From IMG/VR virus record IMGVR_UViG_3300030101_003658, positions 1-36,145 of that record: a DNA stretch of 36,145 bases. One strand, written 5' to 3'. Of the stretch, positions 15,301-36,145 are shown piece after piece (position 1 is the first letter of the stretch; the number at the start of each line of letters is the position of its first letter). This DNA comes from a virus. Both the position numbers and the translations under genes were made by a program. The notes below the pieces were generated by a model, which was not told the DNA's origin, made no database searches, and saw nothing but the letters and a program-made list of their open reading frames with translations.

Positions 15301-18300
15301 GTGCAACAGGAAGTAATGACATATTCTTTAGGGTTTCAGTGGCAAGCCTTAGGCAGCTATGACATGGCTTACATTTCTAGTACTGTTGAAAATGAAAGTT
15401 TACAACTAGGAGCGCCTTACACAGGGCAGTCTGCTGTATTTTCTTGGCAGAGTGTTTTAGACAGTTTAACAGGCGATAGTTTATCAACAAGTTGGTGGTA
15501 TAGTAATTTTAATCAAATTTTAGATTCAGGCCCTGATAACAGTGGTGATTGGACCAACTTAACAAATAATGTTACAGACGACTTTTTTGAAACAGGAGTA
15601 AGAGATTTTTGTGCAAACGGTCCTTTTACAGATTTTTTTAATGAAGATGATACTTTTGGCGCTGGCGTTAATTGGTTTGGTCAATTAGGACCTCAAGTTT
15701 TTAATGGTTTACCTAACGGTCAAGATAATGAATATGAAGGTCAAATTTATAGTTGTGACTCTTGCACTAGTATAGCTTCAACGGCTAATGGTTCTGATTT
15801 TGAAGATTCATTTCATAGTAGCTCAAATACTTATTTTGCAAACCCAGACAACAGTAATGAATTTAATATACTAGCAAACTCTGGTGTATTTGCTTCTTGC
15901 ACTTGGCAAGATAACTTTGAGACTAGAAACTTTTGGAGAGCGTGGACCGATAGCCATAATCAAACTTATCAATCTGATACTATATTTTTAGATTCTTCAA
16001 AGACTAGATTTTTTGAATGGTTTACTAATGACTACGGCGTATATGATTCTGACTATCAAGAACAATTAGCGCCTGGCCTAGATGATGCAAGGCAATTTTT
16101 TAAGCATGAAGCTTTTAGCAATAGCGGTAATGTTAGCGCTGGAACTTATGATGAAATGACAATATCTTATATTTTTCCAGATGGTGGAGGGCCATATTCA
16201 GGTGATGCTTTTGAGCTTTGGAACCAATTAGACACGGAAGATAATCTTTTCTTTTCTATAGGTGACGATCCTCAAATATATAAAATTATAAATGTAAAAG
16301 ACGGTAGAGGCCGAAACTATTCTAAAAATACGCTACCTGGTTTTGATGGTCAAGTTGGCACTATAGGTGGTAATCCCACCTCTGTTAGTGGAGATGTTTA
16401 TGTAGAAAATACTGTTACGACACAGGTAAATAATTTTTTTACAGAACAATGCGTTCCATGTAACCAGACAGTTAACTTAACGCTTTTAAATAACGTTCCG
16501 TTAAGTTACACCAACGAACAACTTGAAGATTACTTTTTATACGCCAGTGAGGGTGGCCCCGCTGTTGTTGGTTCGGTTAACGCTTTCAACTCAGGAACAT
16601 ACCCCACTGAAGATAGAAAAGGTTGTACTAGATTTACAAAAAAAATTAGATTTGTTGCTGTAGATTCTACAACGGTGGCGTACTTACAAGACGGTTCAGA
16701 CAACGTTGGCGCTAATTTAGATACTTACGATCCACGTGGCCATTTACATCATGACGGTAGAGATACTTTAAAAATATTCTTAAAGAAACCTGTACCAGTG
16801 TCATATATAGATAGTGATCCAAATAATGAACTAGGAGCCGTATGGGAAACTGAACCTAAAGAAGATTTAAATTTAGATTTATATTATGAAGCTTCAGGCG
16901 CTATACCTATTAGACTAAATAAAGAAAACGCTTTTAATTTTGCTCCAATAAATTCATCTGTTAGTATAAAAAGAAATGTACCTCAAGGAGCTAATATTTA
17001 TGTTTTAAGTGATATTGATATAGCTTCTACAAGAAGCGACTTAAAGGTATCAAATATACATTTTACAGATCAATCTAACGAAGCTATTTTAGAAATAGTA
17101 TCTAAAACACAATCCGCAGATCCAAACTTATCTAATCAATTTTTTTACCATAGTGGGCCATTTGATATTGAAGGACAGCAAGATACTTCTTTATACCCCG
17201 CTTTTGACGTTGATATAAAAATAGGTGATGTTCTAACTTTTACACATAGCAATGGAACTGAAACAAGAGCTACTGTAACAAGTTATTGGCAAGCAGTAAC
17301 TCCGTCGCCAGATGTGTTTACTCAACCAGGTGTAGTTGATACAAGTCAAACTTTATCTAGTGGGCCTTTTTCTTTTAGTAAAAAAACTAATACTTTTCCA
17401 GGGTCAAATCAAATAATACCAAGCGGTTTATACGGTATTAGTATAGATGTTTGGAACGAAGATGTTAAATTACCTTGGTTTAATTGTTATGCTTTTGGTA
17501 ATGGTGTTGAATCAGATAGAATTAGAGATGATTTTAATGCACCAACTATTGATAATGGCGTAAAAGTTTCTACAACATTTTCAGGTTATGGTGAAGAAGA
17601 AATAAAAAGTGGAATGATATACTCAGGTATATATAATTCAACATCACAAATAAATAGACTTAATGAATTTAACATGTCTGAAAAAATTACTAAGGAATTA
17701 AATCCTAGACATGGTTCTATACAAAGATTAAAGTCTAGAGACACGGACATGGTTGTATTTGCTGAAGATAAAGTTTTAAGATTATTAGCTAATAAAGACG
17801 CTATATTTAATGCTGATGGTAATCCTCAATTAACAGCTACTGATAAAGTTTTAGGTCAAGCTGTTCCTTACGCTGGTGATTATGGAATATCTAAAAATCC
17901 AGAATCATTAGCTTGGGATCAATATAGAATGTACTTTACGGATAAACAAAGAGGCGCTGTGTTAAGATTATCACAAGATGGTTTAACTCCAATATCTAGT
18001 GTTGGCATGAAATCTTGGTTTAAAGATAGATTATCAAAATCTGATTCTTTATTAGGCACATTTGACGTTGTTAATGGAGAATATAATCTTACTATAAAAG
18101 AACCCGCTGTAACAGTTGCTTTTAATGAGGGCGCTAAAGGTTGGGTTAGCTTTAGATCTTTTATTGCTAGCAATGGCTTATCTGTAAGTGGTAAATACGT
18201 AACAACAAATAATAATGGAATTTGGTTACATCACCAAGTAGTCAGTCTTGCAGGAGATATAATAAATAGAAATAATTTTTATGGAGAAGATTATAGATCT

Positions 18301-20571
18301 AGAATAACTTTATTATTTAACTCTCAACCTAGTTCTATAAAATCATTTAAAACTATAAACTACGAAGGATCTGATGGTAGAATAATACCTTTTTTAGGTC
18401 ATACAGGTGTTGTTTTTACTGGAAACGTTAATACTAATACTGATGGAGATATAACAAGTAGCGTTACTTCTTTTCTTAGTGCAACTGATAATGAATATTA
18501 TAATCTGACAGGGCAAGACGGATGGTGGTGTTCTAATATAAGAACTGATTTAGAAAGTGGAAAGGTCCCAGAATTTAAAAAGAAAGAAGGTAAATGGTTT
18601 AATAATATATCTGGAACTGGTATTGGTATTAATTTTAATGTTTTTGATACTGATCAATTTTCTGTTCAAGGCATAGGCCAATTAGCCGCAGATTCGTTTG
18701 TGCAAAATGCTAGCGAAGGAGATGGTAGCGATTGTTACCCAATATGCCCTGATGGTTTTGTTTGTAGCGAAGGAACTTGCGAGGAGGAAGTAATAATTAT
18801 ATCTGGATGTACTAATCCTTTAGCTGATAATTACAACCCCGCTGCAAACGTAGATGATGGAAGTTGCCAAGTTACAATAATAGGTTGCATGGATCCTATA
18901 GCGCCAAATTATAATCCATCAGCAACTGTTACTGATGATATAATACTAAGCACATTAAGTTGTAACGGCTGTGGTGTTAGTTCTGGCCCTTGTATAACTT
19001 GCGAAAATTACGTATTTGGATGTTATTCAAATATAAACGCGGTTAACTATAATCCATTTGCAAATAGAGATGGAGTGTGCTATTATCAAGGTGTTTTAGT
19101 TCCTTGTTTCCCAGGTCCTATAGATACTTTTATAGAACAACCTGGTGCTAGTTGTATGTTTGAAGGAAATTTAAATTGCAATTGGAATTCTGAAGGAACT
19201 GGAAGTCAACTTAGTAACAATGTTTATGGTGATATTGATGGTTGCATAGATGAAATTGAAGGTTGTACAAACCCTGGTTACAGTGAATATAATCCTTACG
19301 CAACTATAGATGATGGCACTTGTCTTTCATTATGTGGGGAAAATGTGGTTGGCTGCACAGATATTAATGCTTGTAATTATGATAATAATGCTACAATTGA
19401 TAGTGGTAATTGTGATTACTGCTCTTGTAAAGGTTGTATGGATTCTTCTGCTATTAATTATAATCCATTTGCAACAAAACAATGTGATGAACCTATTGAT
19501 AACGCTGGTGTAAATATAGATGAAGGGTTTGATAATTGTTGTGTGTATAATCAGTTAGTATTTAATATTTTATCTACTATTAATGTAAACCAGGGTGGCG
19601 ACGGTGATATTATAGGTTGCACTTGCCCTGGCTATGCTAACTATGACCCATTAGCTATTTATCAATGTTGGGAAGTTCCATTTGAAGAATGCTGTGGGCC
19701 ATCAACAGAGGTCGGTGTGGTAGGTTGTATGGAAGAAACAATAAATTTAGTTAACGCTACTGTGACAAATTATAATCCCGACGCGACAATACCAGATATA
19801 TGCCAGTACGAGATACAATACTGTAGTGATGAAAGTGCTATAAATTACAACGTTGGAGGCTGGATAGATAATCTTACATCTAATTACACTTTAGTACCTA
19901 ACGACAGTTTATGTGTGGCTACTGTTTCTGGATGCACAGATGTTAGTATGTCTAACTACAACGCTAGTGCAAATTTTGACGATGGTTCTTGTATTCCATT
20001 TATTTATGGATGTAATGATCCAAACTCTTGGAATTATAATCCATTTTTAAATTCAACAGATGCTGGTTCAAACCAACCATACTATTATGTGCCAACACTA
20101 ACAGATTATGCAGGATATTTACCTAATATTTCGTTTGTTTATGACGGAGAGTGTCAACCTATAATATACGGATGTATGGACGATGGTTTTCAAACTTGGT
20201 CTCCTCATCCAGGTGTAGCTGCTACAAATTATGCTGGACCAGGTAATACAAATAATATAGACCCTCCAGCAAATACACAGTTTACTCAAACGTTTACTCC
20301 AGCTGAAAGTGGATATGGATTGCCAATGATGGAAGGTGGATCAAACGGTGTTGGAACGTGGTACCCTGGTACTGATGTTAGTGGTGTTTCTATAAACATA
20401 TTAATGGGTAGTGATGGAGCGTCTGGATTACAATGTCCAACATGTCTTTGCACGTACCCTGAAACACAAGAGTTACAAGTAATTAATTATCCAGGAGACA
20501 CGTCGGGTTTTGGAATTGAAGATGGTGTTACAACTTCATTAGTCGACCAACAAGGTAATACAGTAGATTAA
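12304..20571 (+). CDS. Giant tail stabilization-type protein with C-terminal Cys-rich repeat arm
   Basis: This 2755-aa protein opens with IKNTFTGGKMNKDLDERLVQ and EYRHALNVQVRTT, a signature of the P22 gp10-like tail stabilization or hub proteins of Bacteroidota phages. Further recognisable segments are ALRSWDNVPRYALAQEIIGN (about residue 590), YKVGMVFGDKYGRETPVISP, VLRLLANKDAIFNADGNPQL (about 1820) and YFTDKQRGAVLRLSQDG (about 1880), all suited to a large beta-rich scaffold. Residues about 800-1800 form a long, poorly conserved-looking insertion. From residue 2168 to about 2720 there are about twelve Cys-rich repeats related to GC-x-D-x-x-A-x-N-Y-N-P-x-A-x-x-D-D-G-S-C. They probably form an exposed arm at the tail tip. 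The normal family length is shorter, so the middle and C-terminal parts look like lineage-specific additions. Confidence 0.9.
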   Translation: MPEIKNTFTGGKMNKDLDERLVQNGEYRHALNVQVRTTDSANDEGIGNAGTVQNMLGNSLLNQLPNVFPEDNKHICVGSVGDEKNDKAYFLFGSSFNQSFSIADINNIVDNDEVRIYFDTIIETNFANNLSEPVVVDVWKVIYSGSSLIAQLGNSTAEDWFGQNETATAWTELNVTDVDNIRPGMFIRFWDLNGNVTLEDIEIKAIDENTILLKEQQTIELTTANSMVIEFYAPKVLNFRSELDDNFVTGINVIDDFLIWTDNKSEPKKIHIPRSKAGTTSSISHTKLFLTNPEDTSQYVDANTLVNQLDNGSLENGSGVNSYLKEEHITVIKKSPKAPPTLEMSSTHNRNGVVNSSCTFSFFSDYDESTNISDLINYNDSRVITIDSSNTNFITNDILIFELETNSDSQVTATFISYLNENDEEVLESTNRIKINLITAYQGITETDVSWDLKLQQREPLFELKLVRFGYRYKYEDGEYSSFSPWSELAFLPGEFDYKINKGFNLGMVNNVRELIIKDFIPYTMPLDVVSVDILYKTTDAPSVYIAETIDIGSNQWELFTPNGEDSTQIKTGRLSITSEMIHRVLPENQALRSWDNVPRYALAQEIIGNRLVLGNYTQGYDIGGPINLTQNIVSASIPSNLVSQPPFKSVKSLRDYKVGMVFGDKYGRETPVISPGHTLSVDETVDSYDSIVDGITVDKTLCGKQNSITVSQNWENGSSPDDWIDYVKYYVKETSSEYYNLVMDRWYDSGDGTVWLSFNSADRNKVDEETYLILKNGFGNQTPVVQKTKYKILSIENEAPDFVKKVYIPIGHLGAPDISGSQGTGGIDQNNTVTDSIWANGQDANTGPPNGLIEGTTLAVSNALWQSIFPDPEADDFDGNYFGQEIKGLPQFRIIGTSLDGTSSNFLYSQATDWVSLTNYKKISVGDSPFIELQWSQPLGSQVDFYTTWVNSNGITDINNNALDVMDLVYSIEFRDSITENKPWFDGKFFVKIQQDALVQQEVMTYSLGFQWQALGSYDMAYISSTVENESLQLGAPYTGQSAVFSWQSVLDSLTGDSLSTSWWYSNFNQILDSGPDNSGDWTNLTNNVTDDFFETGVRDFCANGPFTDFFNEDDTFGAGVNWFGQLGPQVFNGLPNGQDNEYEGQIYSCDSCTSIASTANGSDFEDSFHSSSNTYFANPDNSNEFNILANSGVFASCTWQDNFETRNFWRAWTDSHNQTYQSDTIFLDSSKTRFFEWFTNDYGVYDSDYQEQLAPGLDDARQFFKHEAFSNSGNVSAGTYDEMTISYIFPDGGGPYSGDAFELWNQLDTEDNLFFSIGDDPQIYKIINVKDGRGRNYSKNTLPGFDGQVGTIGGNPTSVSGDVYVENTVTTQVNNFFTEQCVPCNQTVNLTLLNNVPLSYTNEQLEDYFLYASEGGPAVVGSVNAFNSGTYPTEDRKGCTRFTKKIRFVAVDSTTVAYLQDGSDNVGANLDTYDPRGHLHHDGRDTLKIFLKKPVPVSYIDSDPNNELGAVWETEPKEDLNLDLYYEASGAIPIRLNKENAFNFAPINSSVSIKRNVPQGANIYVLSDIDIASTRSDLKVSNIHFTDQSNEAILEIVSKTQSADPNLSNQFFYHSGPFDIEGQQDTSLYPAFDVDIKIGDVLTFTHSNGTETRATVTSYWQAVTPSPDVFTQPGVVDTSQTLSSGPFSFSKKTNTFPGSNQIIPSGLYGISIDVWNEDVKLPWFNCYAFGNGVESDRIRDDFNAPTIDNGVKVSTTFSGYGEEEIKSGMIYSGIYNSTSQINRLNEFNMSEKITKELNPRHGSIQRLKSRDTDMVVFAEDKVLRLLANKDAIFNADGNPQLTATDKVLGQAVPYAGDYGISKNPESLAWDQYRMYFTDKQRGAVLRLSQDGLTPISSVGMKSWFKDRLSKSDSLLGTFDVVNGEYNLTIKEPAVTVAFNEGAKGWVSFRSFIASNGLSVSGKYVTTNNNGIWLHHQVVSLAGDIINRNNFYGEDYRSRITLLFNSQPSSIKSFKTINYEGSDGRIIPFLGHTGVVFTGNVNTNTDGDITSSVTSFLSATDNEYYNLTGQDGWWCSNIRTDLESGKVPEFKKKEGKWFNNISGTGIGINFNVFDTDQFSVQGIGQLAADSFVQNASEGDGSDCYPICPDGFVCSEGTCEEEVIIISGCTNPLADNYNPAANVDDGSCQVTIIGCMDPIAPNYNPSATVTDDIILSTLSCNGCGVSSGPCITCENYVFGCYSNINAVNYNPFANRDGVCYYQGVLVPCFPGPIDTFIEQPGASCMFEGNLNCNWNSEGTGSQLSNNVYGDIDGCIDEIEGCTNPGYSEYNPYATIDDGTCLSLCGENVVGCTDINACNYDNNATIDSGNCDYCSCKGCMDSSAINYNPFATKQCDEPIDNAGVNIDEGFDNCCVYNQLVFNILSTINVNQGGDGDIIGCTCPGYANYDPLAIYQCWEVPFEECCGPSTEVGVVGCMEETINLVNATVTNYNPDATIPDICQYEIQYCSDESAINYNVGGWIDNLTSNYTLVPNDSLCVATVSGCTDVSMSNYNASANFDDGSCIPFIYGCNDPNSWNYNPFLNSTDAGSNQPYYYVPTLTDYAGYLPNISFVYDGECQPIIYGCMDDGFQTWSPHPGVAATNYAGPGNTNNIDPPANTQFTQTFTPAESGYGLPMMEGGSNGVGTWYPGTDVSGVSINILMGSDGASGLQCPTCLCTYPETQELQVINYPGDTSGFGIEDGVTTSLVDQQGNTVD
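18805..20235 (+). repeat. Array of about twelve degenerate Cys-rich protein repeats
   Basis: Within the giant tail gene, repeat units start at 18805, 18883, 19018, 19261, 19351, 19432, 19615, 19723, 19819, 19930, 20008 and 20170. The clearest units are GCTNPLADNYNPAANVDDGSC (split here as GCTNPLADNYNP then AANVDDGSC), GCTNPGYSEYNPYAT and GCTDVSMSNYNASANFDDGS. Unit lengths vary because several carry insertions, and the last is strongly degenerate. The same repeat style is common in secreted and surface proteins of marine Bacteroidota, where paired Cys residues probably form disulfides. Divergence between units argues against recent duplication. Confidence 0.85.
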
Positions 20572-23752: not shown

Positions 23753-24445
23753 ATGGGATTACCAGCATTAATGATCGGATCAGCAGTGGCATCAGGCGTA
23801 TCAAGTATATTTGGAGCTATTAGCGCGGGAAGAGCTAAAAGAGAAGCTGAAAAAAAAGAAAGAGAAGCTAGAGCAGAAATGGAAAGATTAAGGCAGGCGT
23901 ATAAAGATTTAGACACATCTAATCCTTTTGCTAATCTTCAGAATCAGTTTTTAAACATGGAAAATACTATGGAAGATTTGACTGTAAACCAACAACAAGC
24001 TAGGTTTCAAGCTCAGCAATTTCAACAGTCACAAGCTAATATATTAGGTAACTTACGAGGAGCAGCTGGTGGTAGTGGTATAGCAGCGCTAGCTCAATCA
24101 TTAGCTCAGCAAGGACAATTAGCCTCTCAACAAGCTTCTGCTAGTATAGGTCAACAAGAGGCGGCAAATCAAAGAGCAGCAGCACAACAAGCAGCTAATT
24201 TACAACTACAAGAAAGACAAGGTCAAAGTAACTTAGATCTTCAAGTAGCTCAAGGTGAACGACAATCACAACAAATGGAAATGGGCAAAACAGCGACGTT
24301 ACTAGGAATGTCTCAACAAGAGACAGCGGCTTATATGCAACAAGCCCAAGCTGCTAATCAAGCTAAGTGGAACGCTATATCTAGCGGTATAGGAAGTTTA
24401 ACTAACATGGTGGGATCTTACTATCAAGGAGCTGGAGCAAGATAA
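23753..24445 (+). CDS. Gln/Ala-rich internal virion (ejection) protein
   Basis: This 230-aa protein begins with a hydrophobic, Gly/Ala-rich segment (LPALMIGSAVASGVSSIFGA, residues 3-22) followed by a basic-acidic helix (GRAKREAEKKEREARAEMER). The rest is a Gln/Ala-rich helical region with QQQARFQAQQFQQSQANILG and GGSGIAALAQSLAQQGQLAS. It ends with another glycine-containing amphipathic segment (WNAISSGIGSLTNMVGSYYQ). This composition is characteristic of small internal virion proteins such as T7 gp14 and its P22 counterparts, which leave the head and form a channel across the outer membrane. Similarity is in composition and position rather than clear motifs. The leader carries the palindromic motif at 23711-23729. 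Confidence 0.82.
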   Translation: MGLPALMIGSAVASGVSSIFGAISAGRAKREAEKKEREARAEMERLRQAYKDLDTSNPFANLQNQFLNMENTMEDLTVNQQQARFQAQQFQQSQANILGNLRGAAGGSGIAALAQSLAQQGQLASQQASASIGQQEAANQRAAAQQAANLQLQERQGQSNLDLQVAQGERQSQQMEMGKTATLLGMSQQETAAYMQQAQAANQAKWNAISSGIGSLTNMVGSYYQGAGAR

Positions 24446-24458
24446 TAAATAATATAAT

Positions 24459-26063
24459 ATGGCAAGAGATACAGCAGATACAACTTTAGTAAAAGGCGCA
24501 GCAATGGCTGCTGGCGCTAATATAGAAAATTATGGCCTAGCGGCAGCTAAAGGAATGACTGATATTAGTAAGTCATTTGGTGATTTGGGAGCAGGCTTAG
24601 CTAAAGAGCTTGGTGAAATGTCACAAAGATTTGATGACTTTGCTGATGCTGAATTAGCTAGACAACCAGATGACATGTTAGAGCCAGATCGAAAACGATT
24701 AATGGAGCAGCTAGAAAGAAGAAAAAAAGATTGGATAATAGGAGGAAAGAAAGATAGAGAAATGATAAAATTTGAATTAGAAGAAGAGGGTCAAACAATA
24801 TCACAATGGGACGAAGTTAGACAAAATCTAGCTAAGAATAATAAAGATCTTAATAAAAAATTTAAAACAAGTGCATTAGGTCAATCAATAATTGAGGCAT
24901 TACAAGGGTCTATAAAAAAAGATGCTAACGGCAGAAGAGGTTACTATCTCACTGATGATAATGGAAAAAAAGTATTTAAAACATTAAAGCAAGTTAATGA
25001 AATTATAAATCAAAATACTTATGACAAGGTAAGTAAAAATGTTATTGATGCAAATATAGATAAAACGATTAATAATTCTAAAAACGCTAAAGAAGGCGAA
25101 ACATTTAACTACACACAAGAGTTAATGAATTATGAAAACATAATAACAAAAGGTAATGTCATATCACTGGCAACACAAGAACATGTCCCTGGTAGAATAT
25201 TCTACGACGACTTACAAGAAATGCTTGTTAATAATACTTATGGAGATTTAGGTATTAAACCTAATAAGGTAAATAGATTTGACCCTACTCCAGAGTCTGT
25301 TGTTACTGAAGAGGACGCTAAAGTTATAGCTGATAACTTAATGAAAAATAAAAGATTAACACAAAGGTATCTAGCTACATACTTTACTAATTATGCTGAG
25401 CAGAATTGGTACAACTCAAATCCAAATAAAGGCGGTAATAGTCCAGATCCAGAGGGGACTATATACAAAGACCATGATAAAAGCTGGGACTATAAAATTG
25501 TAAATGGTAGATGGCAAGCTAAGCGTAAAAGCGGAGGCTCATGGCAAGATATACACGATAAATTCCCATCATCAGTAATTAAATTAAATAATAAATACCC
25601 TAACGCCGGAGGTGGTAGCTCTAGCGGCGGTGGAAGTAGAACAAGTGGCAATAACACTAAACGACAAACGACACCACAACCTGATCAACCTACAGGAAAT
25701 AATGATGCGCAAAACAATTGGCTTCAAAAGCCAGCTATTAAAGAGTACATGAATAATGATGATTTAGTAATGGGTAGTGGTGATTTAGGAGTTACGGGTA
25801 GAGACGTAAGATATAGCGCTAATAATTTTGTAGAAAGATTTAATAATAAATTTGGAAAATACGGAATTAAAGCTAGAAGAATTAAACATACTAAAAACAC
25901 TCTTGATCCTGATAAAATTGAAATTAGTTTTGAAGGGCTTGGTGATGACTTTAAAAAAGAATTTAAAGTTAATTTTATAAGTGGCACAGGTAAAAATAAT
26001 ATTTCTGCTTCAGCAATAAATAGATTTTTAGGAGATACGTTTGGGCGTTTAACTGACAACTAA
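24459..26063 (+). CDS. Probable internal virion (ejection) protein
   Basis: This 534-aa protein starts 13 bases after the preceding stop. The N-terminal 60 residues are Ala/Gly-rich and helical (KGAAMAAGANIENYGLAAAK). A charged helical body follows (RKRLMEQLERRKKDWIIGGK; KNNKDLNKKFKTSALGQSII). Residues about 385-425 are a Gly/Ser then Gln/Pro/Thr linker (GGGSSSGGGSRTSG and onward), separating a C-terminal domain of about 110 residues (MNNDDLVMGSGDLGVTGRDV to RLTDN). It lies between the Gln/Ala-rich protein and the giant protein, matching the three-gene ejection blocks of podoviruses. The role is inferred from this order. No lysozyme or transglycosylase motif is visible. Confidence 0.8.
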   Translation: MARDTADTTLVKGAAMAAGANIENYGLAAAKGMTDISKSFGDLGAGLAKELGEMSQRFDDFADAELARQPDDMLEPDRKRLMEQLERRKKDWIIGGKKDREMIKFELEEEGQTISQWDEVRQNLAKNNKDLNKKFKTSALGQSIIEALQGSIKKDANGRRGYYLTDDNGKKVFKTLKQVNEIINQNTYDKVSKNVIDANIDKTINNSKNAKEGETFNYTQELMNYENIITKGNVISLATQEHVPGRIFYDDLQEMLVNNTYGDLGIKPNKVNRFDPTPESVVTEEDAKVIADNLMKNKRLTQRYLATYFTNYAEQNWYNSNPNKGGNSPDPEGTIYKDHDKSWDYKIVNGRWQAKRKSGGSWQDIHDKFPSSVIKLNNKYPNAGGGSSSGGGSRTSGNNTKRQTTPQPDQPTGNNDAQNNWLQKPAIKEYMNNDDLVMGSGDLGVTGRDVRYSANNFVERFNNKFGKYGIKARRIKHTKNTLDPDKIEISFEGLGDDFKKEFKVNFISGTGKNNISASAINRFLGDTFGRLTDN

Positions 26064-26117: not shown

Positions 26118-29100
26118 ATGGAAAAAGAAATGTACATTGTCCTAGATAGCGATGGTAATAAAAAATCATATTTTGTCGAAAACGAAAATGATAAAATTGA
26201 ATTATTTAATAACGCAAAAGCAAACAATGAACAAGTGCTTGACGTAATGGGCAACCTTGTGAATTTTAATAACAAATCTAACAACAACAATACTGAAGAT
26301 TTTAAGCCGTTTGAATTTAAAAAACCTAAATTACAAACAGAAATTGAAAACTTTTCTCCTCCAAGGTCTCAAGGTGAGTTTGAAAGGCAAGAGGAAACAA
26401 AAAAGTTTAAAGAGCAAAGAGAGCGAGCAAACGATCCTAATTACGTATGGAGCCCTTCCGACAATAAGTATATATCTAAAGATGAAACTGACGAGGCGTA
26501 TACAAGCAATCTACAAAACATTATACACCATGACATAGAAGACGTGCCTGGCCCTGATTTAGCCCCTGGAAACATGGGTCGTAAAGAAGTTGATCGTTTA
26601 GTTCAATGGTTCAATAATGATAGTAACTATTCTAACTCTGGAGTTAAGTTAAATGTTTCATCAAGGGATAGTAAATTTGAAGAAGTAGAACTATTATTTT
26701 GGAACCAAGAGCCTGGACAGGGCCACACTTTTGATATTAGAGATCCTAAACTTTTCGACAATATTAAAACTCAAATAGATCAAGAAGTTCATACTGATAA
26801 AAAAATAAAAAATCTTGATTACCTATCTAAATTAATACCACCTCAAATATTAAACTACACAAACGACGGTTACGGTAACGACGAAGTAAACAAAGCTACA
26901 TTTCATAAGAACCTTAATACAATTGTAAATTTTATTAAAAATAAAAAACAAGACACAAGTTATTTAGGTAGTTACTCAGATCCGTACTCAAAAGACCTCA
27001 ACTCAAATATATCATTAGAGGAAATCGAAGAATTTTTTAAAGACCCTGTTAATAGTCAACAGCTTTTAATGTATTTAAAAGATGATGATAAAGATATTTT
27101 TCCTTTGGGCAATTTGCATGAAAGGCCCGCTGGGATGTTTAGATCTTACAAAAAATTTTCTCAAGGAGTTTTTCCAGATTATTCACCAGGAGACGAAATG
27201 GTTGTTCCAACTATAACAATGCCTGATGGTAGTGTAGTATCTTATGATTATATATGGAGAAATAGAAAGCAAGCGTATAATTATTGGAAAGAAAATAATG
27301 CAAATAGTGAACTGCAAAATGAACAAGAAAGAGTTTCTGAAGGAAATCCAAATATTAATAAGGATCAAAAAAGAGAATTATTAGTTAATAATTATGTTTC
27401 TAATTTAAAAAATTCAGAATATATATTAAACGCGTACGATGGAGATACTGATGCTGCTATTATTGACTTACAAGATCAAATAAAAGATTTTAAAGAAAAC
27501 TACAAAGAAGACTCACCTATAAAAGAAAATACTGAGTATAAAAAATTAATATCAGAAAGAGACAGATTAATAGACCAACAGGGTTATACAGATGATATGA
27601 AATTGTTTGACGAAAACAATAACTTTATAGGCATAGATAAAAATTGGGTTTATAATAAAGAAAAAAATCAATGGATTAATAATAAAACTGGTGATGTAAA
27701 AGACGTTCTTGGTAATAATGATGACGCTGAAAAAAGAGCAATTAAAAACGATAAAAACGAGCTTGAAGACATGCTTGTTAATTCTGTTATTGATTTAAAA
27801 GAAATAGCAAAGTTAGTTGCATTAGATCATGAAAGAATACATGGAAAACATACATGGTTTCATAAAAAGCTTTCTGCTTTAGTTGACTTTGATAAATCAA
27901 GTTGGATGCGTGATGCTAGACAGCTTCAGAAAGTATTAGCAACAAATAGCATATTTAATCTTGACCAAGAAGTTCCAGGTATTTCAGAAGACTTTTTAGA
28001 AACAGGTATGATTGGAAAAGATTTACCACGCTTGACAAAATTATCTGGTAATACGGATTTAGAAAAAGAATTTAATAAAGCCTTAGAGGAGGTGGTTACA
28101 AATTATAGAGCGTTACAGCTTAATATAAATCCAATGAAAGGACCCGTTCAAAGTTGGATAAGTGAAACTTTAACAAAAGCACAAAAAACTTTTGGTGGAG
28201 AACATTATGGTAGTAAAATAACATATGATGATCTTAATGAAACGTTTGAGCACCAATTTAAAGAAAACGATGACTATTCGTTATTAGATATTGAAGATAG
28301 AGAATCAAAAGGTAGACAGTTTGCTGACGTTATTACAGGTGGGGTTATTGATATATCTCAATTAACTCTTGGTATTTTTGTAGGTAATAAGGTTACTGGC
28401 TTTAGCAAAGCAGCTAAGTTCTTACAAAAAGCAATGCAAAGCTCAAAAAGATATCAAAACGCATCTAAGTTTAAATCTGCTGTTGCAGATATTTCTTTTA
28501 GCGGTATTAAAACAGCTGTTGAATGGTCTATAGGTGAAGGTGTTTATTCTACTATAATTGGTAATGATATTCAACAAACTTTTTATTGGGACGATGAAAA
28601 AGGAGAAATGGTAATACATCCAACCGCTGCTATAGCTTTAGGGTCTGGAACAATGATATATAAAAAATTTAAAGATGTTGTTCATAAAGGCTTAATGACT
28701 AGATCAGCAAACTATAGAAAATTAAATAAAATAACACCAGATTTATTTAAAGCTGCTCAAAACACTGTTGGTGGTGGTGTTACTCCAGCGCTTCTACTCT
28801 CTGCGGGTACAGGCGTTGATCAGTTTTTAAAATATGGTAAAATTAATTTAGAGACAGAGTACGATGATGAAGGTAATATTATAACACCTAGCATGTTCGG
28901 TCCTGATGGTATGAAATCTTTGGCTGAATCTATCATAATGTTTGGTACTTATGGTTTAATGAAGGGCGGCCCTAGAATGTATTACAAGGCAGCTAAAGCA
29001 GATATATTAAAACTTAAAGGTATTGATGCGAACCAAAGAGTACATCAAAACTCTCTTAATATAGATCAAAAAGAGGTAGATGGCGATGGTATAATAGATC

Positions 29101-32100
29101 CAGATGTTATAGAAAAAAATGCTAAAAAACAAAGAAATAAAAATAATAAAAAACTAAAAAAAGTTACAAAAAAAATAAGAGAAGTTGAACAATCTAATAC
29201 TTTAGATGCAGAGCAGAAAGGTAAAAAATTAACAGAGCTTGAAAATCAAAAAACAGAATTAAACAAAAAGAAAAAAGAGATAGACAATGCTGAAAAGATG
29301 TTAAATACTTATAACGTTGTTAATGAGGCTAGAGCTATTGCTAAAGCAGATAATGCTTATGACCAATATTTGCTACAAGAATTTTTAGAAACAGATGCTT
29401 TTACTAATTTACGCCGAGGTGTTGGTAAAATGAGTATAGAACAATTAGAACTTATTGCAGATCAAAAATATGGATTAAGACCTGAAGCTTTAGAAATAAT
29501 ATATGATAGACTTAATATAAAAGAAAGTGAAAGAGGTTACTATGATTTTGTAGTTAATAGAATAAGAGAAGATGCTTCTTACCTAGATTATCTTAAGGTT
29601 CCTAAAGGAATGGGTAATAAATCAAGAGAGAAATATATTAAAAACTCTCACAAAGAAGCTTTTAATGAAATGCAAATTAGATCATTAGAAGAAGCTTCTA
29701 AAAAAGATCCTAGTACTAAATCTAAAAACGATAACTTAATAAAAAAACTAAAAGAAGAAAATAAAAAACTTTTAGAAGAAAACGAACTTCAAATAGATAA
29801 GTTTAATAAAAACTTTAGAGAAAGATTAAAAAGAGAAAACGATTATTTAAGAGATGTAGTAGAAAAGCAAAATAAAACATACAAAACTTATAACACAAGA
29901 GATTTTAAAAAAGCCGTTGAAAAAAACGGTGGCGTATATGATAAGACAATGAACGCTTTTATAACAGAAAAAGGTGATAAAATATTTATAGATTTACAAA
30001 AGGCCTCAAAAAATAAAAGTTTAGGTTTAGGTATACATGAGGTTGCGCATATGTTGTTAATAGATTCTTTTAAGACTACTAAAAACGGTAAAAGAGTTGT
30101 ATCAGAGCAAGGTATTAAAACTATAGACTACATGCTCGATAAATTACCGGGTGGTAGATATGGTAAAGATTTTAAATTGCTTAAAGATGTTGTAGAAACA
30201 AACTATAGATATGAAGTTGATGTTGAAGCTTCAAGAAAAGCAAGTATAGAAGCTGGTGAAAGAAAAATAATTTATAAAAAAGACGCTAACGGAAAGCGTA
30301 TTGAAAAACCAAAAGAAGAATACTACGAAGAATACGTTGGTAAATTAGCTGAGTTTATAAAAGAAGGTAGAATAAAATCAACAGCTGGATTAGGAACTAG
30401 AATAGGTAAAGCTTTTTACCCAGTATTAAAAAAAGGTTTACCACAGTTATATAAATTTAATATAAACGGCACAGATAGTAAAAAAGCTGGAGCTGACATG
30501 TTAAAGTTTATAGACTGGATGGCTACTACAGGGTTAACTAAAAACGTACTTGATGTAGGAGTTGGCGGCAAAAGTTCTAGCGGTAAAGGTCCTGGTGCTG
30601 AATCACGAGATATAAACAATCAAATACAACAACTTAAGCCAGGTTCAGAACTTGTAGTTAAAGAAAATACTAAAATAACAAATGCATTAATTAAACGAGC
30701 CCAACAAAAGTTTGGTGATAATTGGAAAGAAATACTAGATAGCGACGCACCAGAAAATAAAGCTAAACAAAAAGAATTTGCTAAAGAAACTACTGATTTA
30801 AGAATGGGTGAAACAAATAGTATAACCTCTGTTAACGAAGGTGTAGTATACTACATGGTTAATCACCCTAAGTACGGTCGTAAAGGAGAGATAGCTGGTG
30901 GATATGATAAATCTGGAAAAACGCAAAGAGAGTTTATAGAAGGATTTAAAAAAGAATTAGAGGATCTAGCTATGACTTATAACCCAGCTAAAAATGATGC
31001 TGTTGGGGCTTACTTACTTCAAACTATAAAGAAAAGATATCCAGGTATAATGGATGTTGTAAGCAAGGGATCTAATACTAAATCTTTAACTACAGAAGAC
31101 GGCACTCAAATTGAAATAAGAGATTTAGATAGTTACGAAAAACTTGAATCAGAAAATATACTTGAATTAGAATTTAGAAAAAGAAGAAGCGAAAAATTAA
31201 TTGAAGAGGTTAGTAAAGAAATATCGCAATCTAAACTAAGAAGAGAAATAGGTATAGAAGATACTCAAAAAGAAAAAATATTTGAACAAGTAAAAAAAGA
31301 TTTACAATTAACAAAGTCTCCTATTGGCACAACAAAAAAAAGTTTTTTAAGTTCATTAAATAAAGCAACAGAAAATTCTCATTATGATATATTAAAAGAT
31401 TTACCTAATGAAAAAATAATTGAACTAAAAGATGCTATATTAGAATCTATACCTATATCAGAGTTGGTTCAGATGGGTAAGTTTTTACCTCAAGGAAATA
31501 TATTTATAAAAGAATATACTCACCCTACAAAAACTAAATGGGGAGCTAACGCAGAAATAATGGAGTTTATGGGTATTAGACCTGATGGCGGATTTAAGTT
31601 TAATACATCTGGAAAAAATTTATTACCGGAAATGAAAAGTTTATTTGATGTGTTTTCTAAAATGCCTCAAGCAGAACAAAAAGCTTCAGCTGAATTTAAA
31701 GAGTTTAATAAAAAAATTAAAGCTGGCTTTCCTAAAATATACGAAAGAAGAAACGTTGGTATTAACGAATGGAAAACATATATAGAATCTTCAACTAAAG
31801 GTAAAAGGCAAGTCGCTGAAAAGTCAGGAACTAAAGGTAACAATAGAATTAATCTGTTAAAAAAATTATCTACATCTTTAACTAAGGATGCTATACCAGA
31901 AATACTTGAAAACAATAAAGAGTTTGTAGATAGATACATGGACGTTAAAGGGCTTAAGGAACAGGTAGAAGCTAAAGCATTAATAGAGCAATTTATTAAT
32001 AGTATAGAAAGAAGACAAGGTATGCAGTTTTCTAAAAATGTTGAGCAAGCTTTAGAAGAAGCTAGATTAGAAAGAAGAGAAATGATTAATGCTGGTGAAA

Positions 32101-35100
32101 AATCTATAAGAGGCATGTTTAATATTATAAACAAAATAGCTGATGTCGGTGTTCAAAATGTTTATGATTTTAGTCCTGTAGGCGAAAAGTTTAAATATGA
32201 ACTTAAAAAAGAATATAAAAATTTAATAAGTAACAGCGAGGCTAAATTTATTTTTGAAAATTTAATACTTGAAAATAAAGTTTTTAATCATGAAGGCGGA
32301 GTCGAAGTTCAAAAAATATTAGAAGGAATAGAGTCAAAAGGTAATAAACGTAGTTTAGGTTTTGAACAGTTTATTATGAATCAATTTAAAGGTGTTAAGG
32401 GCATAGTTTTAAAAACAGAGTTTCAAACAGAAATAGGGGACATGGCAGATGTTCCTGCTGAAATAGCTGGTAGAGCTTTTAATGTAGAAGTTAAAATGCA
32501 CAATGCTAGATTAGGAAGTCTTACGGCTAGTCTAAATATGAAAAACAATACTATAGGCGAAGTAACAACTAAAGATTTTAATAAGTTTAGAGACAAAGCC
32601 CAAATAGAATCATTGCTAAAAGAGTCACTAAAAGGTTGGAGAAAAATAAGAAGTTATTATAAAAAACTTTCTACAATTCCAGAAGGAACTGTAATTGACG
32701 GAGTTGAGGTTAGTAAAAGAGATAAAATTTTATTAAAGAATTTTAACAAACATAACAGCGCTATTCCAGGCTGGGCTTTTAAATTAGCTTTAGAATCAAA
32801 GTTATACAATCAAGCTAGATCAACTGGTGTTTTTAAAGAAACTCTTATAGAAGATATGTATATGCTAAAGACAAACCCATCTGAATATATGTTGTGGTTA
32901 GGAAAAGGCTTGTTGCATTTAGGTAAAAATAGTTTTGGTTTAGAAACCACTAAGTTAGAAGGAGAGTTTTTTGGCAGCTGGGGCCATAGTAAAAGATCTA
33001 TTAAAAGCAAGACAACTAAACATGAGGCTTTTATAACTAAAAAAAATCCTAAAGGTATAATTGATGCTAGCGGTCTGGTTACAGCTAGCTTAAGATTTAT
33101 TCCCACAGCTAAAAAAGTAACTAGCAAAAACTCTAAAATAAACGTTACAAGTAAACAAGGTTTACAAGTATTTAATAGAAGCGTTAAGAACGCTACTAAA
33201 ATAATTAAAGCTCAAGAAAAAGCTAAAGCTCAAGGTCAAGCTTCTAAATCTATTAATAACGTTATTGATTTTGCTACAGGTAAAATAAAAAGAAAAGGTA
33301 TGTCTACTTTTGATTTTGACGATACGGTTGGTAGAACAAAGTCAGGCGTTAGAGCTAGAGTACCTAATCCTGATGGAAGCCCTAAGCCAAAACGTAAAGT
33401 TATATTTTTAGCTGGTGGTGCTGGTAGTGGTAAGGGTAATGTTATTAGAAAACTAGAATTAGAAAAGCAAGGTTTTAAAATAGTTAATTCTGATATATCA
33501 TTAGAGTGGTTAAAAAAGAATCATGGTTTACCTGAAAACATGAATGATCTAACTAAAGAACAAAGAAGTATATTAGGTAAATTAGGCCATGAGTCTAGGC
33601 AAATAGCTAAACGTAAAATGATGAAGTACCAAGGTAATGCGGAGGGTGTTGTCATTGACGGAACTGGTGGCTCAGTTAAAACAATGGAAAAGCTTGTTAA
33701 AGAGTTTAAAGACAAAGGGTATGATACTAGTATGTTATTTGTAGAAACGTCATTAGATGTAGCCTTAGAGCGTAATAGAGCTAGAAAAGAAAGATCATTG
33801 CTTGATGTTATAGTTAAACGTAATCACGAGGCTGTACAAAAAAATAAACCTTCGTTTAAAGACATGTTCCAGCAAAACTTTATGGAAGTTAAAACAGATA
33901 AGTTGACAATGGAAAGCGCTATGCCTAGAGAGTTGGTATCAAAAATGGGTGAGTTCGTTAGAGGCTATGAAAAAATTAGATTAGACGCTGAAGAGTTTGC
34001 TAGTAAAGGAGAGATGATTAAAAACAAAGGAGGTGAATTTGATTTTTCTGAATTTAATAAAGTTGTAGAAGGACAGCCTGGTCCTTTCCTTGAAAAACTA
34101 AAAGAAAGAATTAAAGAGTACGGAAGTAAAGATGTATTTATTTTAACAGCTAGACCAGCGGCGTCAGCTACCGCTATAAAAGAATTTTTAAAAGAACAAG
34201 GTATAGATATACCAATAGAAAATATAACAGGATTAGGCAATAGTACTGGACAAGCTAAAGCGCAATGGATGTTAAAGAAGTTTTCTGAAGGCTACAATGA
34301 TATGTATTTTGTAGATGATGCTTTTCAAAATGTTAAAGCTGTTAAAGATGTTTTAAATAAACTAGATGTTAATTCAAAAGTTGTTCAAGCTAAACTTCAA
34401 TTTAGTAAAAATATTGATGTTGAGTTTAATGACATAATAGAAAGAATATCTAAAGGTAAAATTAAATCAGCAAAAGAAATGTCATTAGCTGAAGCTAGAG
34501 CTTTAGGTAAAGGTAAAGGTAGATTTGATTATTTTGTACCACCTTCAGCTGAAGATTTAAAAGGATTAATGTATTATCTTTTAGGAAAGGGAAGGCAAGG
34601 TGAGGCTGATATGAAATTTATTAAAGAAGCTTTATTTGATCCATGGGCTAGAGGCATTAGAGATTTAACTATTGTTAAACAAAAAATGGTTGAAGAATAT
34701 GCTAAGCTAAAAAAAGATAATAAAAAATTAAAGTTAGATAAAAAAGTAGAAGGAACTCCTTATACTGTTGACGCTGCAATTAGAATGTATTTATGGGAAA
34801 AAGCTGGACACGAAGTACCTGGTATAAATAAAGCTGAACAAAAAATATTAACTGACTACGTTAAGTCTAGACCTGAATTAATTTCTTTTGCAGAAACGTT
34901 AGGTTCTATAAGTAGAATAAAAGAAGGTTACGAAAAACCTAGTGATTATTGGATGGTTGAAAGTATAGGAGCTGATTTAAATAATATAACATTAAACAGA
35001 ACAAGAAAAGATTTTTTACACGAATGGATTGAAAATAAAAATATAATATTTTCTGAAAAAAACTTAAACAAATTAGAGGCTCAATTTGGTCCTAGCTATA

Positions 35101-36145
35101 GAGAGGCATTAGAAAATATGCTTACTAGAATGGAACTAGGTACTAATAGATTACAAGGTATAAAAGACGGGCCTACTAAACTATGGTATGATTGGGTTAA
35201 CGGTTCTGTAGGAGCAACCATGTTCTGGAATACTAGATCAGCAGCTCTACAAACTATATCTATGGTTAACTTTACAAACATGGCAGAGAATAATATATTT
35301 GCTCAAACAAGAGCGTTTGCTAATCAAAAACAATTTTGGTCTGACTTTGCAATGTTGTTTAATTCACCTATGTTAAAACAAAGAAGGGGTGGTTTAGAAA
35401 TAGATGTGTCGGCATCAGAGCTAACAAATATGTTTCAAAAAAGTGGTAAAGATCCTAGAGCAATATTAAAGTATATGTTAGAAAAAGGTTTTACACCTAC
35501 GCGTATTGCGGATAGTTTTGCTATTGCTATGGGTGGATCTGCTTTTTACAGAAATAGATATAATAAATATATAAAACAAGGTATGTCTAAAGCTAAAGCT
35601 AAAGAAAAGGCTATGCTAGACTTTCAAGAAATAGCTGAAGAGACACAACAATCTTCTAGACCTGATTTAATATCACAGCAACAAGCTGGTCCGTTAGGAC
35701 GTATAATACTAGCTTGGCAAAACACGCCAATGCAAATGACAAGATTAATGAAGAAAAAATTATCTGATTTAGTAAATAGAAGAAGAAAACCAGGTCAAAC
35801 ACAAATGCAAAGTGATATGGCAAATTTATCTGGTATATTATACTATGGTGCTATACAAAATTTATGGTTTGGTATGTTACAATCAGGGTTGGCTTGGACA
35901 ATGTTTGGTTCTGACATGGAAGACAAGTTTGAAAAGCAAAGTAATAAAGTTTTAAATGGAGCATTTGATACTTTGTTAAGAGGTACTGGTATTTATGGTG
36001 CGGCTTTTTCAACAATGAAAAATACTGTATTAAGATATTATCAAGAAAAAGAAAAAGGATTTATTAAAGGAGACCAAGCTTACACTATTATTGAAGCATT
36101 AAATCTTTCTCCACCAATTGGTAGTAAAGTTAGAAAAGGTTATAA
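26118..36145 (+). CDS. Giant polyvalent virion protein, at least 3342 aa (3' end beyond window)
   Basis: The frame runs without a stop from ATG 26118 to the window edge; an in-frame TAA at 26100-26102 makes 26118 the first possible Met. Visible parts in order: hydrophilic region (1-700); hydrophobic segments near 735-760, 834-850, 886-908 and 935-955; Lys/Glu coiled coils near 998-1060 and 1205-1258; HExxH at 1307-1311; a PD-(D/E)xK-like motif at Asp2108/Asp2111 and Glu2124-Val-Lys2126; HAD motif I DFDDT at 2399-2403; P-loop GGAGSGKG at 2433-2440; HAD LTARP at 2676-2680 and VDD at 2732-2734; and a helical C-terminal part with NTRSAALQT at 3038. Multidomain proteins of this kind are called polyvalent proteins and are thought to enter the host with phage DNA. 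It follows two ejection-type genes. Function is inferred; no N4-type RNA polymerase motifs were seen. Confidence 0.9.
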   Translation, partial: MEKEMYIVLDSDGNKKSYFVENENDKIELFNNAKANNEQVLDVMGNLVNFNNKSNNNNTEDFKPFEFKKPKLQTEIENFSPPRSQGEFERQEETKKFKEQRERANDPNYVWSPSDNKYISKDETDEAYTSNLQNIIHHDIEDVPGPDLAPGNMGRKEVDRLVQWFNNDSNYSNSGVKLNVSSRDSKFEEVELLFWNQEPGQGHTFDIRDPKLFDNIKTQIDQEVHTDKKIKNLDYLSKLIPPQILNYTNDGYGNDEVNKATFHKNLNTIVNFIKNKKQDTSYLGSYSDPYSKDLNSNISLEEIEEFFKDPVNSQQLLMYLKDDDKDIFPLGNLHERPAGMFRSYKKFSQGVFPDYSPGDEMVVPTITMPDGSVVSYDYIWRNRKQAYNYWKENNANSELQNEQERVSEGNPNINKDQKRELLVNNYVSNLKNSEYILNAYDGDTDAAIIDLQDQIKDFKENYKEDSPIKENTEYKKLISERDRLIDQQGYTDDMKLFDENNNFIGIDKNWVYNKEKNQWINNKTGDVKDVLGNNDDAEKRAIKNDKNELEDMLVNSVIDLKEIAKLVALDHERIHGKHTWFHKKLSALVDFDKSSWMRDARQLQKVLATNSIFNLDQEVPGISEDFLETGMIGKDLPRLTKLSGNTDLEKEFNKALEEVVTNYRALQLNINPMKGPVQSWISETLTKAQKTFGGEHYGSKITYDDLNETFEHQFKENDDYSLLDIEDRESKGRQFADVITGGVIDISQLTLGIFVGNKVTGFSKAAKFLQKAMQSSKRYQNASKFKSAVADISFSGIKTAVEWSIGEGVYSTIIGNDIQQTFYWDDEKGEMVIHPTAAIALGSGTMIYKKFKDVVHKGLMTRSANYRKLNKITPDLFKAAQNTVGGGVTPALLLSAGTGVDQFLKYGKINLETEYDDEGNIITPSMFGPDGMKSLAESIIMFGTYGLMKGGPRMYYKAAKADILKLKGIDANQRVHQNSLNIDQKEVDGDGIIDPDVIEKNAKKQRNKNNKKLKKVTKKIREVEQSNTLDAEQKGKKLTELENQKTELNKKKKEIDNAEKMLNTYNVVNEARAIAKADNAYDQYLLQEFLETDAFTNLRRGVGKMSIEQLELIADQKYGLRPEALEIIYDRLNIKESERGYYDFVVNRIREDASYLDYLKVPKGMGNKSREKYIKNSHKEAFNEMQIRSLEEASKKDPSTKSKNDNLIKKLKEENKKLLEENELQIDKFNKNFRERLKRENDYLRDVVEKQNKTYKTYNTRDFKKAVEKNGGVYDKTMNAFITEKGDKIFIDLQKASKNKSLGLGIHEVAHMLLIDSFKTTKNGKRVVSEQGIKTIDYMLDKLPGGRYGKDFKLLKDVVETNYRYEVDVEASRKASIEAGERKIIYKKDANGKRIEKPKEEYYEEYVGKLAEFIKEGRIKSTAGLGTRIGKAFYPVLKKGLPQLYKFNINGTDSKKAGADMLKFIDWMATTGLTKNVLDVGVGGKSSSGKGPGAESRDINNQIQQLKPGSELVVKENTKITNALIKRAQQKFGDNWKEILDSDAPENKAKQKEFAKETTDLRMGETNSITSVNEGVVYYMVNHPKYGRKGEIAGGYDKSGKTQREFIEGFKKELEDLAMTYNPAKNDAVGAYLLQTIKKRYPGIMDVVSKGSNTKSLTTEDGTQIEIRDLDSYEKLESENILELEFRKRRSEKLIEEVSKEISQSKLRREIGIEDTQKEKIFEQVKKDLQLTKSPIGTTKKSFLSSLNKATENSHYDILKDLPNEKIIELKDAILESIPISELVQMGKFLPQGNIFIKEYTHPTKTKWGANAEIMEFMGIRPDGGFKFNTSGKNLLPEMKSLFDVFSKMPQAEQKASAEFKEFNKKIKAGFPKIYERRNVGINEWKTYIESSTKGKRQVAEKSGTKGNNRINLLKKLSTSLTKDAIPEILENNKEFVDRYMDVKGLKEQVEAKALIEQFINSIERRQGMQFSKNVEQALEEARLERREMINAGEKSIRGMFNIINKIADVGVQNVYDFSPVGEKFKYELKKEYKNLISNSEAKFIFENLILENKVFNHEGGVEVQKILEGIESKGNKRSLGFEQFIMNQFKGVKGIVLKTEFQTEIGDMADVPAEIAGRAFNVEVKMHNARLGSLTASLNMKNNTIGEVTTKDFNKFRDKAQIESLLKESLKGWRKIRSYYKKLSTIPEGTVIDGVEVSKRDKILLKNFNKHNSAIPGWAFKLALESKLYNQARSTGVFKETLIEDMYMLKTNPSEYMLWLGKGLLHLGKNSFGLETTKLEGEFFGSWGHSKRSIKSKTTKHEAFITKKNPKGIIDASGLVTASLRFIPTAKKVTSKNSKINVTSKQGLQVFNRSVKNATKIIKAQEKAKAQGQASKSINNVIDFATGKIKRKGMSTFDFDDTVGRTKSGVRARVPNPDGSPKPKRKVIFLAGGAGSGKGNVIRKLELEKQGFKIVNSDISLEWLKKNHGLPENMNDLTKEQRSILGKLGHESRQIAKRKMMKYQGNAEGVVIDGTGGSVKTMEKLVKEFKDKGYDTSMLFVETSLDVALERNRARKERSLLDVIVKRNHEAVQKNKPSFKDMFQQNFMEVKTDKLTMESAMPRELVSKMGEFVRGYEKIRLDAEEFASKGEMIKNKGGEFDFSEFNKVVEGQPGPFLEKLKERIKEYGSKDVFILTARPAASATAIKEFLKEQGIDIPIENITGLGNSTGQAKAQWMLKKFSEGYNDMYFVDDAFQNVKAVKDVLNKLDVNSKVVQAKLQFSKNIDVEFNDIIERISKGKIKSAKEMSLAEARALGKGKGRFDYFVPPSAEDLKGLMYYLLGKGRQGEADMKFIKEALFDPWARGIRDLTIVKQKMVEEYAKLKKDNKKLKLDKKVEGTPYTVDAAIRMYLWEKAGHEVPGINKAEQKILTDYVKSRPELISFAETLGSISRIKEGYEKPSDYWMVESIGADLNNITLNRTRKDFLHEWIENKNIIFSEKNLNKLEAQFGPSYREALENMLTRMELGTNRLQGIKDGPTKLWYDWVNGSVGATMFWNTRSAALQTISMVNFTNMAENNIFAQTRAFANQKQFWSDFAMLFNSPMLKQRRGGLEIDVSASELTNMFQKSGKDPRAILKYMLEKGFTPTRIADSFAIAMGGSAFYRNRYNKYIKQGMSKAKAKEKAMLDFQEIAEETQQSSRPDLISQQQAGPLGRIILAWQNTPMQMTRLMKKKLSDLVNRRRKPGQTQMQSDMANLSGILYYGAIQNLWFGMLQSGLAWTMFGSDMEDKFEKQSNKVLNGAFDTLLRGTGIYGAAFSTMKNTVLRYYQEKEKGFIKGDQAYTIIEALNLSPPIGSKVRKGY
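29890..30420 (+). other. HExxH metallopeptidase-like domain inside the giant protein
   Basis: After a strand that reads KIFIDLQKASKNKSLGLGI, residues 1307-1311 are HEVAH, the zinc-binding HExxH signature, followed by a hydrophobic MLLIDSF. A downstream helix, EEYYEEYVGKLAEFIKEG (about residues 1400-1415), offers Glu residues that could be the third zinc ligand, as in gluzincins. The fold and activity are inference; the motif alone occurs by chance at some rate in a protein this long, but its setting with flanking hydrophobic residues supports it. Confidence 0.55.
32170..32600 (+). other. PD-(D/E)xK nuclease-like domain inside the giant protein
   Basis: Residues about 2020-2160 read as a restriction-endonuclease-like fold. 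A strand ending IGDMADVPAEI supplies Asp2108 or Asp2111, and the next strand FNVEVKM supplies Glu2124 and Lys2126 (E-x-K). A preceding helical part includes LGFEQFIMNQFKGVKGIVLK. This spacing fits the D-(X)n-ExK core of PD-(D/E)xK nucleases. Activity is not shown. A degenerate, non-catalytic member is possible. Confidence 0.5.
33300..34400 (+). other. HAD phosphatase-like domain interrupted by a zeta-toxin-like P-loop kinase
   Basis: HAD motif I (STFDFDDTVGRTKSG, Asp2399 and Asp2401) is followed within about 32 residues by a P-loop kinase: KVIFLAGGAGSGKGNVIRK, then IVNSDISLEWL, VVIDGTGGSVKTM, and VETSLDVALERNRARKERS with its Arg-rich lid. HAD then resumes with GGEFDFSEFNKVVEGQPGPF, LTARPAASATAIKEFL, ITGLGNSTGQAKAQ (candidate motif III Lys) and MYFVDDAFQNVKAV. 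The kinase resembles zeta toxin and polynucleotide-kinase-like enzymes by its Walker A of GGxGSGKG type and the 'DGTG' and 'R--R' elements. A kinase plus phosphatase pair recalls nucleic-acid end repair enzymes or nucleotide-sugar kinases; which substrate is used is unknown. Confidence 0.7.

Follow-up and report, generated by a model that had tools for sequence, protein, structure and literature searches.

The virion block and the gene that closes it

The window, by which we mean the whole stretch of 36,145 nucleotides analysed here, comes from a marine phage whose last virion gene encodes a giant protein. The genes for the terminase large subunit (2137-4350, plus strand) and the portal protein (4347-6740, plus strand) place this phage, as both match their counterparts in Elemovirus and in the Cellulophaga phages phi38:1, phi40:1, phi13:2, and phi18:3, and also those of Tenacibaculum phage Gundel, Maribacter phage Panino, and the environmental genome MW202828. 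We conclude that the phage sits near the cultured flavophages as a Pervagoviridae/Elemovirus-related podovirus. Directly before the terminase gene lies a GroES-like gene (phrog_13932, 1330-1917), which is kept at that place in several cultured relatives, some of which encode GroEL too.

Profile searches revealed that the window genes encoding proteins of 403, 489, 282, 257, 288, and 2755 aa individually match phi38:1 gp92-gp97 and, likewise, Elemovirus gp30-gp25. The 2755-aa product is a muzzle-like tail protein (12304..20571, plus strand; crAss_MUZ_C, 2.3e-7), which anchors the synteny and, being about twice as long as phi38:1 gp97 (1324 aa), carries large insertions. Between the muzzle-like gene and a 136-aa gene lies an 895-aa gene (20590-23277), which has eight matches among the ORFs of relatives and no match to any tested gene of the isolates. 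In every inspected related genome except that of Gundel, the virion block is closed by a large or giant gene. The GenBank entries for phi40:1 (gp97-gp101) and phi18:3 (gp112-gp115, gp120, gp121, and gp123) describe products as "annotation based on experimental MS/MS proteomics analysis", among them that of the last virion gene of each phage (gp101 and gp123, respectively). The first-pass annotation had placed the giant gene last in the virion block, and this gene-by-gene synteny with phages whose last gene is MS/MS-annotated bears the placement out. In Gundel, the large structural gene (Gundel_1 gp074, NC_062747.1 40108-47556) precedes the terminase gene instead of coming last, indicating that the gene order is rearranged there. 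We also note that the public names of two last virion giants, PP540027.1 PANI_CDS0069 and MW202828.1 UOF82488, look unreliable ("tRNA methyltransferase" and "reticulocyte binding/rhoptry protein").

The two genes preceding the giant encode proteins of 230 aa (23753..24445, plus strand) and 534 aa (24459..26063, plus strand). By position, they stand in the places of phi40:1 gp99 and gp100, both MS/MS-annotated, and by order in those of N4 gp52 and gp51, which makes them the probable first and second ejection proteins, respectively. Their earlier description as ejection-type genes thus holds as far as position is concerned, whereas no sequence homology to phi38:1 gp99 or gp100 was detected.

The giant ORF itself (26118..36143, plus strand) begins with ATG and runs for 3342 codons to the end of the contig, where it is still open, and in the nearest relative (contig L086) the frame continues for 198 codons beyond the final codon of the window, suggesting by comparison that about 200 codons are missing at the 3' end. 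Relatives were collected by scanning IMG/VR with the C-terminal 515 residues of the window, which gave 209 matches, 80 of which were fetched. The giant is a single open frame in all 77 relatives longer than 1,900 aa, the others being short pieces, and in these 77 its length is 2211-4025 aa (median 2940), with a few cut by the contig end. The uninterrupted frame of at least 3342 codons reported at first pass is therefore real and not an assembly artefact. Among contigs bearing a terminase gene, 15 of 21 also carry the C-terminal core of the giant, and the remaining six are fragments of 21.7-31.1 kb. Matches to the core in bacterial genomes were confined to two short contigs (L221 and L222; JAAGZR010000477 and JAAGZR010000008) of one Aliivibrio metagenome-assembled genome. 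We considered and rejected Aliivibrio as the host, as these contigs are likely stray phage DNA.

Modules of the giant protein

The N-terminal third (residues 1-1030; 26118..29207, plus strand) is lineage-specific, being detectably similar only to the giants of L086, L087, L102, and L115. A 19-residue Kyte-Doolittle scan found a sole notably hydrophobic stretch (residues 737-756, peak 1.59), so the plural "hydrophobic segments" described previously is weak; charged, coiled-coil-like runs occur past residue 975. We regard the N-terminal third as a probable envelope or ejection region. An N-terminal domain of ~550 aa in phi38:1 gp101 recurs in 35 of the 81 family members (the window and the 80 fetched relatives) and in phi13:2, Elemovirus, and Panino; it was not found in the window itself. 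Homology between the window N terminus and this domain was rejected, as a direct search was null and hhalign gave only a 58-column match.

Next in the chain is a zincin-like metallopeptidase module (residues 1286-1481; 29973..30560, plus strand), detected by profile in 73 of the 81 members. It contains HEVAH at residues 1307-1311 (30036-30050) and a candidate third ligand, the Glu in YYEEY (30321-30347), with a conserved Glu lying ~95 residues past HEVAH; a second HExxH motif, HERIH at residue 571, falls outside the conserved region. HExxH is present in 77 of the 80 relatives, and the other three are short pieces. The zincin profile also matches Elemovirus gp21 (1.8e-10) and the MW202828 giant (3.5e-6), and the family's homology to the giants of the cultured and environmental relatives is modular, residing in the ~550-aa N-terminal domain and the zincin. 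In reversed-sequence controls, no module gave a domain i-E-value below 0.02.

A conserved helical module, which we call MID (residues 1569-1796; 30822..31505, plus strand), is present in 63 of the 81 members. We noted a likeness to sigma-70 region 2 at 30630-31030 (residues ~1505-1640), in the first part of MID, with the pattern NNxxLAxxA...G...FQxGFxxELxxLxRTYDPAxxxPFGAY. Sigma factors were four of the seven best matches of the MID profile against the PDB (E 0.12-0.56), and pairwise hhalign comparisons of MID with sigma factors fell in a single register above controls (P 0.0012-0.0077). Narrower MID profiles gave no sigma factor matches, the Pfam families listed for MID include no sigma family, and the VIA-align scores against sigma factors (Z 3.5-3.7) are within noise. 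The resemblance is faint and suggestive, and we treat it as a lead.

The PD-(D/E)xK nuclease module (residues 2077-2293; 32346..32996, plus strand) was recognized from its motif and an AlphaFold2 model. It occurs in 19 of the 81 members (the window and 18 relatives) with the D and ExK conserved; in the window, these lie within residues 2107-2127. Within the model of residues 1275-2300, the nuclease region is predicted with confidence (pLDDT mostly 78-93), and PD-(D/E)xK enzymes rank first among its VIA-align matches (HhaI endonuclease, Z 8.4 over 147 residues; homing nuclease I-Ssp6803I, Z 6.4; Hjc resolvase, 5.8). Because these Z values are modest, the nuclease call rests on the consistent match list together with the motif; the model combines the core fold with the D and ExK expected of this class. 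A Foldseek search with the zincin-to-nuclease model alone returned nothing below E 0.001.

Downstream lies a HAD-family phosphatase (residues 2396-2770; 33303..34427, plus strand), with motifs FDFDDT (33309-33326; DFDDT is residues 2399-2403), FILTARP (34137-34157), and YFVDDAF (34305-34325), all on the plus strand. Its catalytic residues (DxDxT, T, K, and DD) do not vary across the 48 sequences aligned. The phosphatase is interrupted between motifs I and II by a P-loop kinase (residues 2425-2600; 33390..33917, plus strand) with the P-loop GGAGSGKG at residues 2433-2440 (33414-33437). Fourteen of the 81 members carry the kinase, and the P-loop lysine and DGTG are invariant in 12 of 12. The spacing between HAD motifs I and II is exactly 276 residues in all measured kinase carriers as opposed to 76-79 in kinase-less relatives in which both motifs were located (with the exception of L116, which has a different insert and a spacing of 102). 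This indicates that the kinase is a module of ~200 residues inserted at one site. The HExxH, D...ExK, HAD, and P-loop motifs listed in the first-pass annotation were thus all located, and the presence of HExxH in nearly every relative and the invariance of the HAD catalytic residues exceed what chance would produce.

The kinase-HAD fold was read on a model of the L086 protein (mean pLDDT 78.8), whose segment is 80% identical to that of the window. With this model, the first Foldseek match in the PDB was T4 polynucleotide kinase-phosphatase (Pnkp; 5e-5), and VIA-align placed the Clostridium thermocellum Pnkp kinase at the top, with Z 16.9 over 166 residues (rmsd 3.0). O-phosphoseryl-tRNA kinase reached Z 15.2, and zeta toxin and T4 Pnkp each scored 13.7, the latter in an alignment spanning the kinase and the phosphatase together. 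The modelled domain has the polynucleotide-kinase fold. No significant match came from searching PDB sequences with the HAD-kinase-core profile, and the Pfam family Zeta_toxin matched the window kinase at 1.5e-9 (38 bits, cut-off 22.3). Phage proteins resembling the kinase include small ones encoded by HTVC008M and Melnitz; a weaker likeness is seen to multidomain proteins of Staphylococcus phages, which bear the annotation RNA ligase or phosphatase.

The C-terminal core (residues 2771-3342; 34428..36143, plus strand) is mostly helical and universal, being present in 81 of 81 members. It was seen only within the window's family, with no sequence match to the five named giants of relatives, among them those of the cultured phages, and no Pfam match in the window scan (E up to 1). 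The L086 model, compared with BFVD, retrieved close relatives first and then many phage proteins of polyvalent type, with names such as PolyVal, large polyvalent associated, MuF-C, and nuclease, in alignments of ~770-1340 columns at 10-15% identity (E ~1e-14 to 1e-6). On the evidence of the model, the core fold appears to recur in the C-terminal parts of other polyvalent proteins from phages. Zinc-finger-like repeats, C-x6-G-x-RC-x10-CxxH, are found at the C terminus of 39 of the 80 relatives, in two copies in 34; those of L086 (L086:11900-12139) weakly match the NCBIfam entry HGG_STG (E 0.078). In the window, such a zinc tail would lie past the contig end.

Across the family, we counted 14 module combinations among 78 proteins, with the order of modules constant. 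On the core tree, a minimum of 5 changes must be assumed for the kinase and 12 for the nuclease, while the phi38:1-type N-terminal domain requires 19 and the zinc tail 11, which suggests that modules were repeatedly gained or lost and that the content is rapidly reshuffled. The variable parts also include a Glyco_hydro_108 match in two relatives and an LPD14 match in one (0.0012).

A possible role at entry and its alternatives

On balance, we think it probable that the giant is a virion-packaged, ejected polyvalent protein built on the plan of the N4 giant, with a kinase-HAD pair that most likely heals nucleic-acid ends at entry. According to this proposal, two smaller putative ejection proteins would be followed by the giant with its envelope-interacting N terminus, and the core would act as a packaging handle in the virion. 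The latter role, for packaging or ejection, is probable by analogy with N4, the C-terminal region of which is required for encapsidation (PMC5512222). The zincin would probably release or process domains after entry. Between the fixed ends would be placed exchangeable enzymes, here a nuclease and a HAD 3'-phosphatase that houses a 5'-kinase, and the kinase-phosphatase pair would most likely heal broken ends as the phage enters, e.g. those left where host nucleases have cut tRNA. Host nucleases that cleave tRNA are the classic target context of T4 Pnkp. End healing seems to us the most economical role because a polynucleotide kinase is nested in a phosphatase and would be delivered with the genome. 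The multi-enzyme, polyvalent make-up proposed at first pass is thus upheld by sequence profiles and models for the zincin, nuclease, HAD, and kinase, with packaging, ejection, cleavage, and any action against defence systems standing as predictions; similarly, a toolkit acting on nucleic-acid ends is a possible role, given the match of kinase and HAD to T4 Pnkp and the presence of a PD-(D/E)xK nuclease, as a predicted activity. RtcB and the PF09414 RNA ligase were both looked for in 12 contigs that encode the kinase, and neither was found. This counts against the repair reading, though not decisively, because these contigs are fragments; a search for the PF09511 ligase gave no match in control genomes and was hence uninformative.

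The kinase may instead be a UDP-N-acetylglucosamine kinase of the zeta-toxin type, serving to weaken the cell wall as the phage enters, as wall action has been proposed for zeta-like kinases in polyvalent proteins (PMC5512222). This stays a real rival because the window kinase passes the Zeta_toxin cut-off, and the zeta fold is matched in structure (Z 13.7); in addition, the closest BFVD match to the L086 model is named UDP-N-acetylglucosamine kinase. We nevertheless consider it rather unlikely, as polynucleotide kinase scores higher than zeta toxin (Z 16.9 versus 13.7), T4 Pnkp is the top Foldseek match with the HAD matched too, and nesting in a HAD phosphatase would fit end healing better than a toxin. 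It is also conceivable, if somewhat unlikelier still, that the giant is mainly a structural component of the ejection channel like T7 gp16, with enzymes that serve in assembly only or are vestigial. The virion position, the MS/MS annotation in relatives, and a phi38:1 counterpart free of the enzyme motifs would agree with such a role. However, the invariance of the HAD (48/48) and kinase (12/12) residues and the retention of the nuclease D and ExK speak against it, and the repeated gain or loss of enzyme modules suggests cargo.

All computations made are compatible with a giant that is never packaged and instead acts inside the cell at a late stage, in maturation or host takeover, its gene just happening to end the late operon. 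This we regard as highly improbable, given that the syntenic last genes of phi40:1 and phi18:3 are structural by MS/MS annotation and that family members have a domain in common with the phi38:1 and phi13:2 counterparts. Hardly less doubtful is a more elaborate version of the entry model, in which the giant would correspond to that of N4 minus the polymerase and would bring in an end-healing kinase-phosphatase together with MID, a degenerate sigma-70 region 2 that would recruit the RNA polymerase of the host to the phage genome as it enters. If true, the virion would carry a sigma-like domain where N4 has an RNA polymerase.

Returning to the preferred reading of an ejected, end-healing polyvalent protein, a virion-delivered polynucleotide kinase-phosphatase would, if confirmed, allow repair of host-inflicted nucleic-acid damage to begin before any phage gene expression. 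Only a small number of model phages are known to inject giant proteins. The family described here is common in IMG/VR viral contigs and comparable with cultured flavophages, and its fixed ends with an exchangeable middle would offer a natural catalogue of what phages inject. As phi38:1, phi40:1, and Elemovirus are cultured, packaging and ejection are testable.

Comparison with known systems

Among the cultured relatives, gp101 of phi40:1 and phi38:1 and gp21 of Elemovirus resemble the window giant in holding the last place after the same gene block and in having either the N-terminal domain or the zincin in common with its family. Unlike the window giant, phi38:1 gp101 is half the size (1691 aa) and lacks HExxH, HAD, and P-loop motifs by pattern search. 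The kinase-HAD pair is most readily compared with T4 Pnkp and the C. thermocellum Pnkp kinase, with which it shares the 5'-kinase fold and, in the case of T4 Pnkp, a HAD phosphatase in the same chain. In T4 Pnkp, however, the kinase stands in front of an uninterrupted HAD domain, whereas that of the window splits the HAD between its motifs I and II, and the pair sits in a giant protein of the virion block.

The giant of N4 and other Schitoviridae, gp50, is similar in size (~3500 aa), in coming after two virion genes, one small and one of middle size, and in having an HExxH subdomain and a large helical C-terminal domain; in N4, the HExxH is carried by the C1 subdomain (PMC12633501). It differs in its enzymatic content, which is an RNA polymerase in N4 and a nuclease, kinase, and phosphatase in the window. 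We considered and rejected an RNA polymerase giant, as no polymerase family was detected in the window (Pfam, E up to 1), nor among the families tallied in the regions upstream of the core in 68 relatives (0.01). A comparison of the core with the C2 domain of the N4 virion RNA polymerase likewise detected no homology at the sequence level (hhalign E 0.32 and 0.055). With no polymerase found and no C-terminal match at the sequence level, we would not class the giant among the N4-like RNA polymerases.

With the polyvalent proteins (Iyer et al. 2017, PMC5512222), the giant shares a giant chain bearing several unrelated enzymatic domains, here at least two in one polypeptide (among the zincin, PD-(D/E)xK nuclease, HAD, and kinase), a zincin, a late virion neighbourhood, in that it is encoded among late virion genes, and a core fold similar to that of BFVD proteins named PolyVal or LPD. 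It is unlike them in that Pfam finds no LPD38 or MuF in the window, nor indeed any LPD domain at E up to 1, and in that HAD is universal in its family. By analogy, the giant would be an N4-type ejected giant in plan (gp52-gp51-gp50) and a polyvalent protein in content, and we conclude that it is probably a previously undescribed, rapidly reshuffled form of the known polyvalent injected phage proteins.
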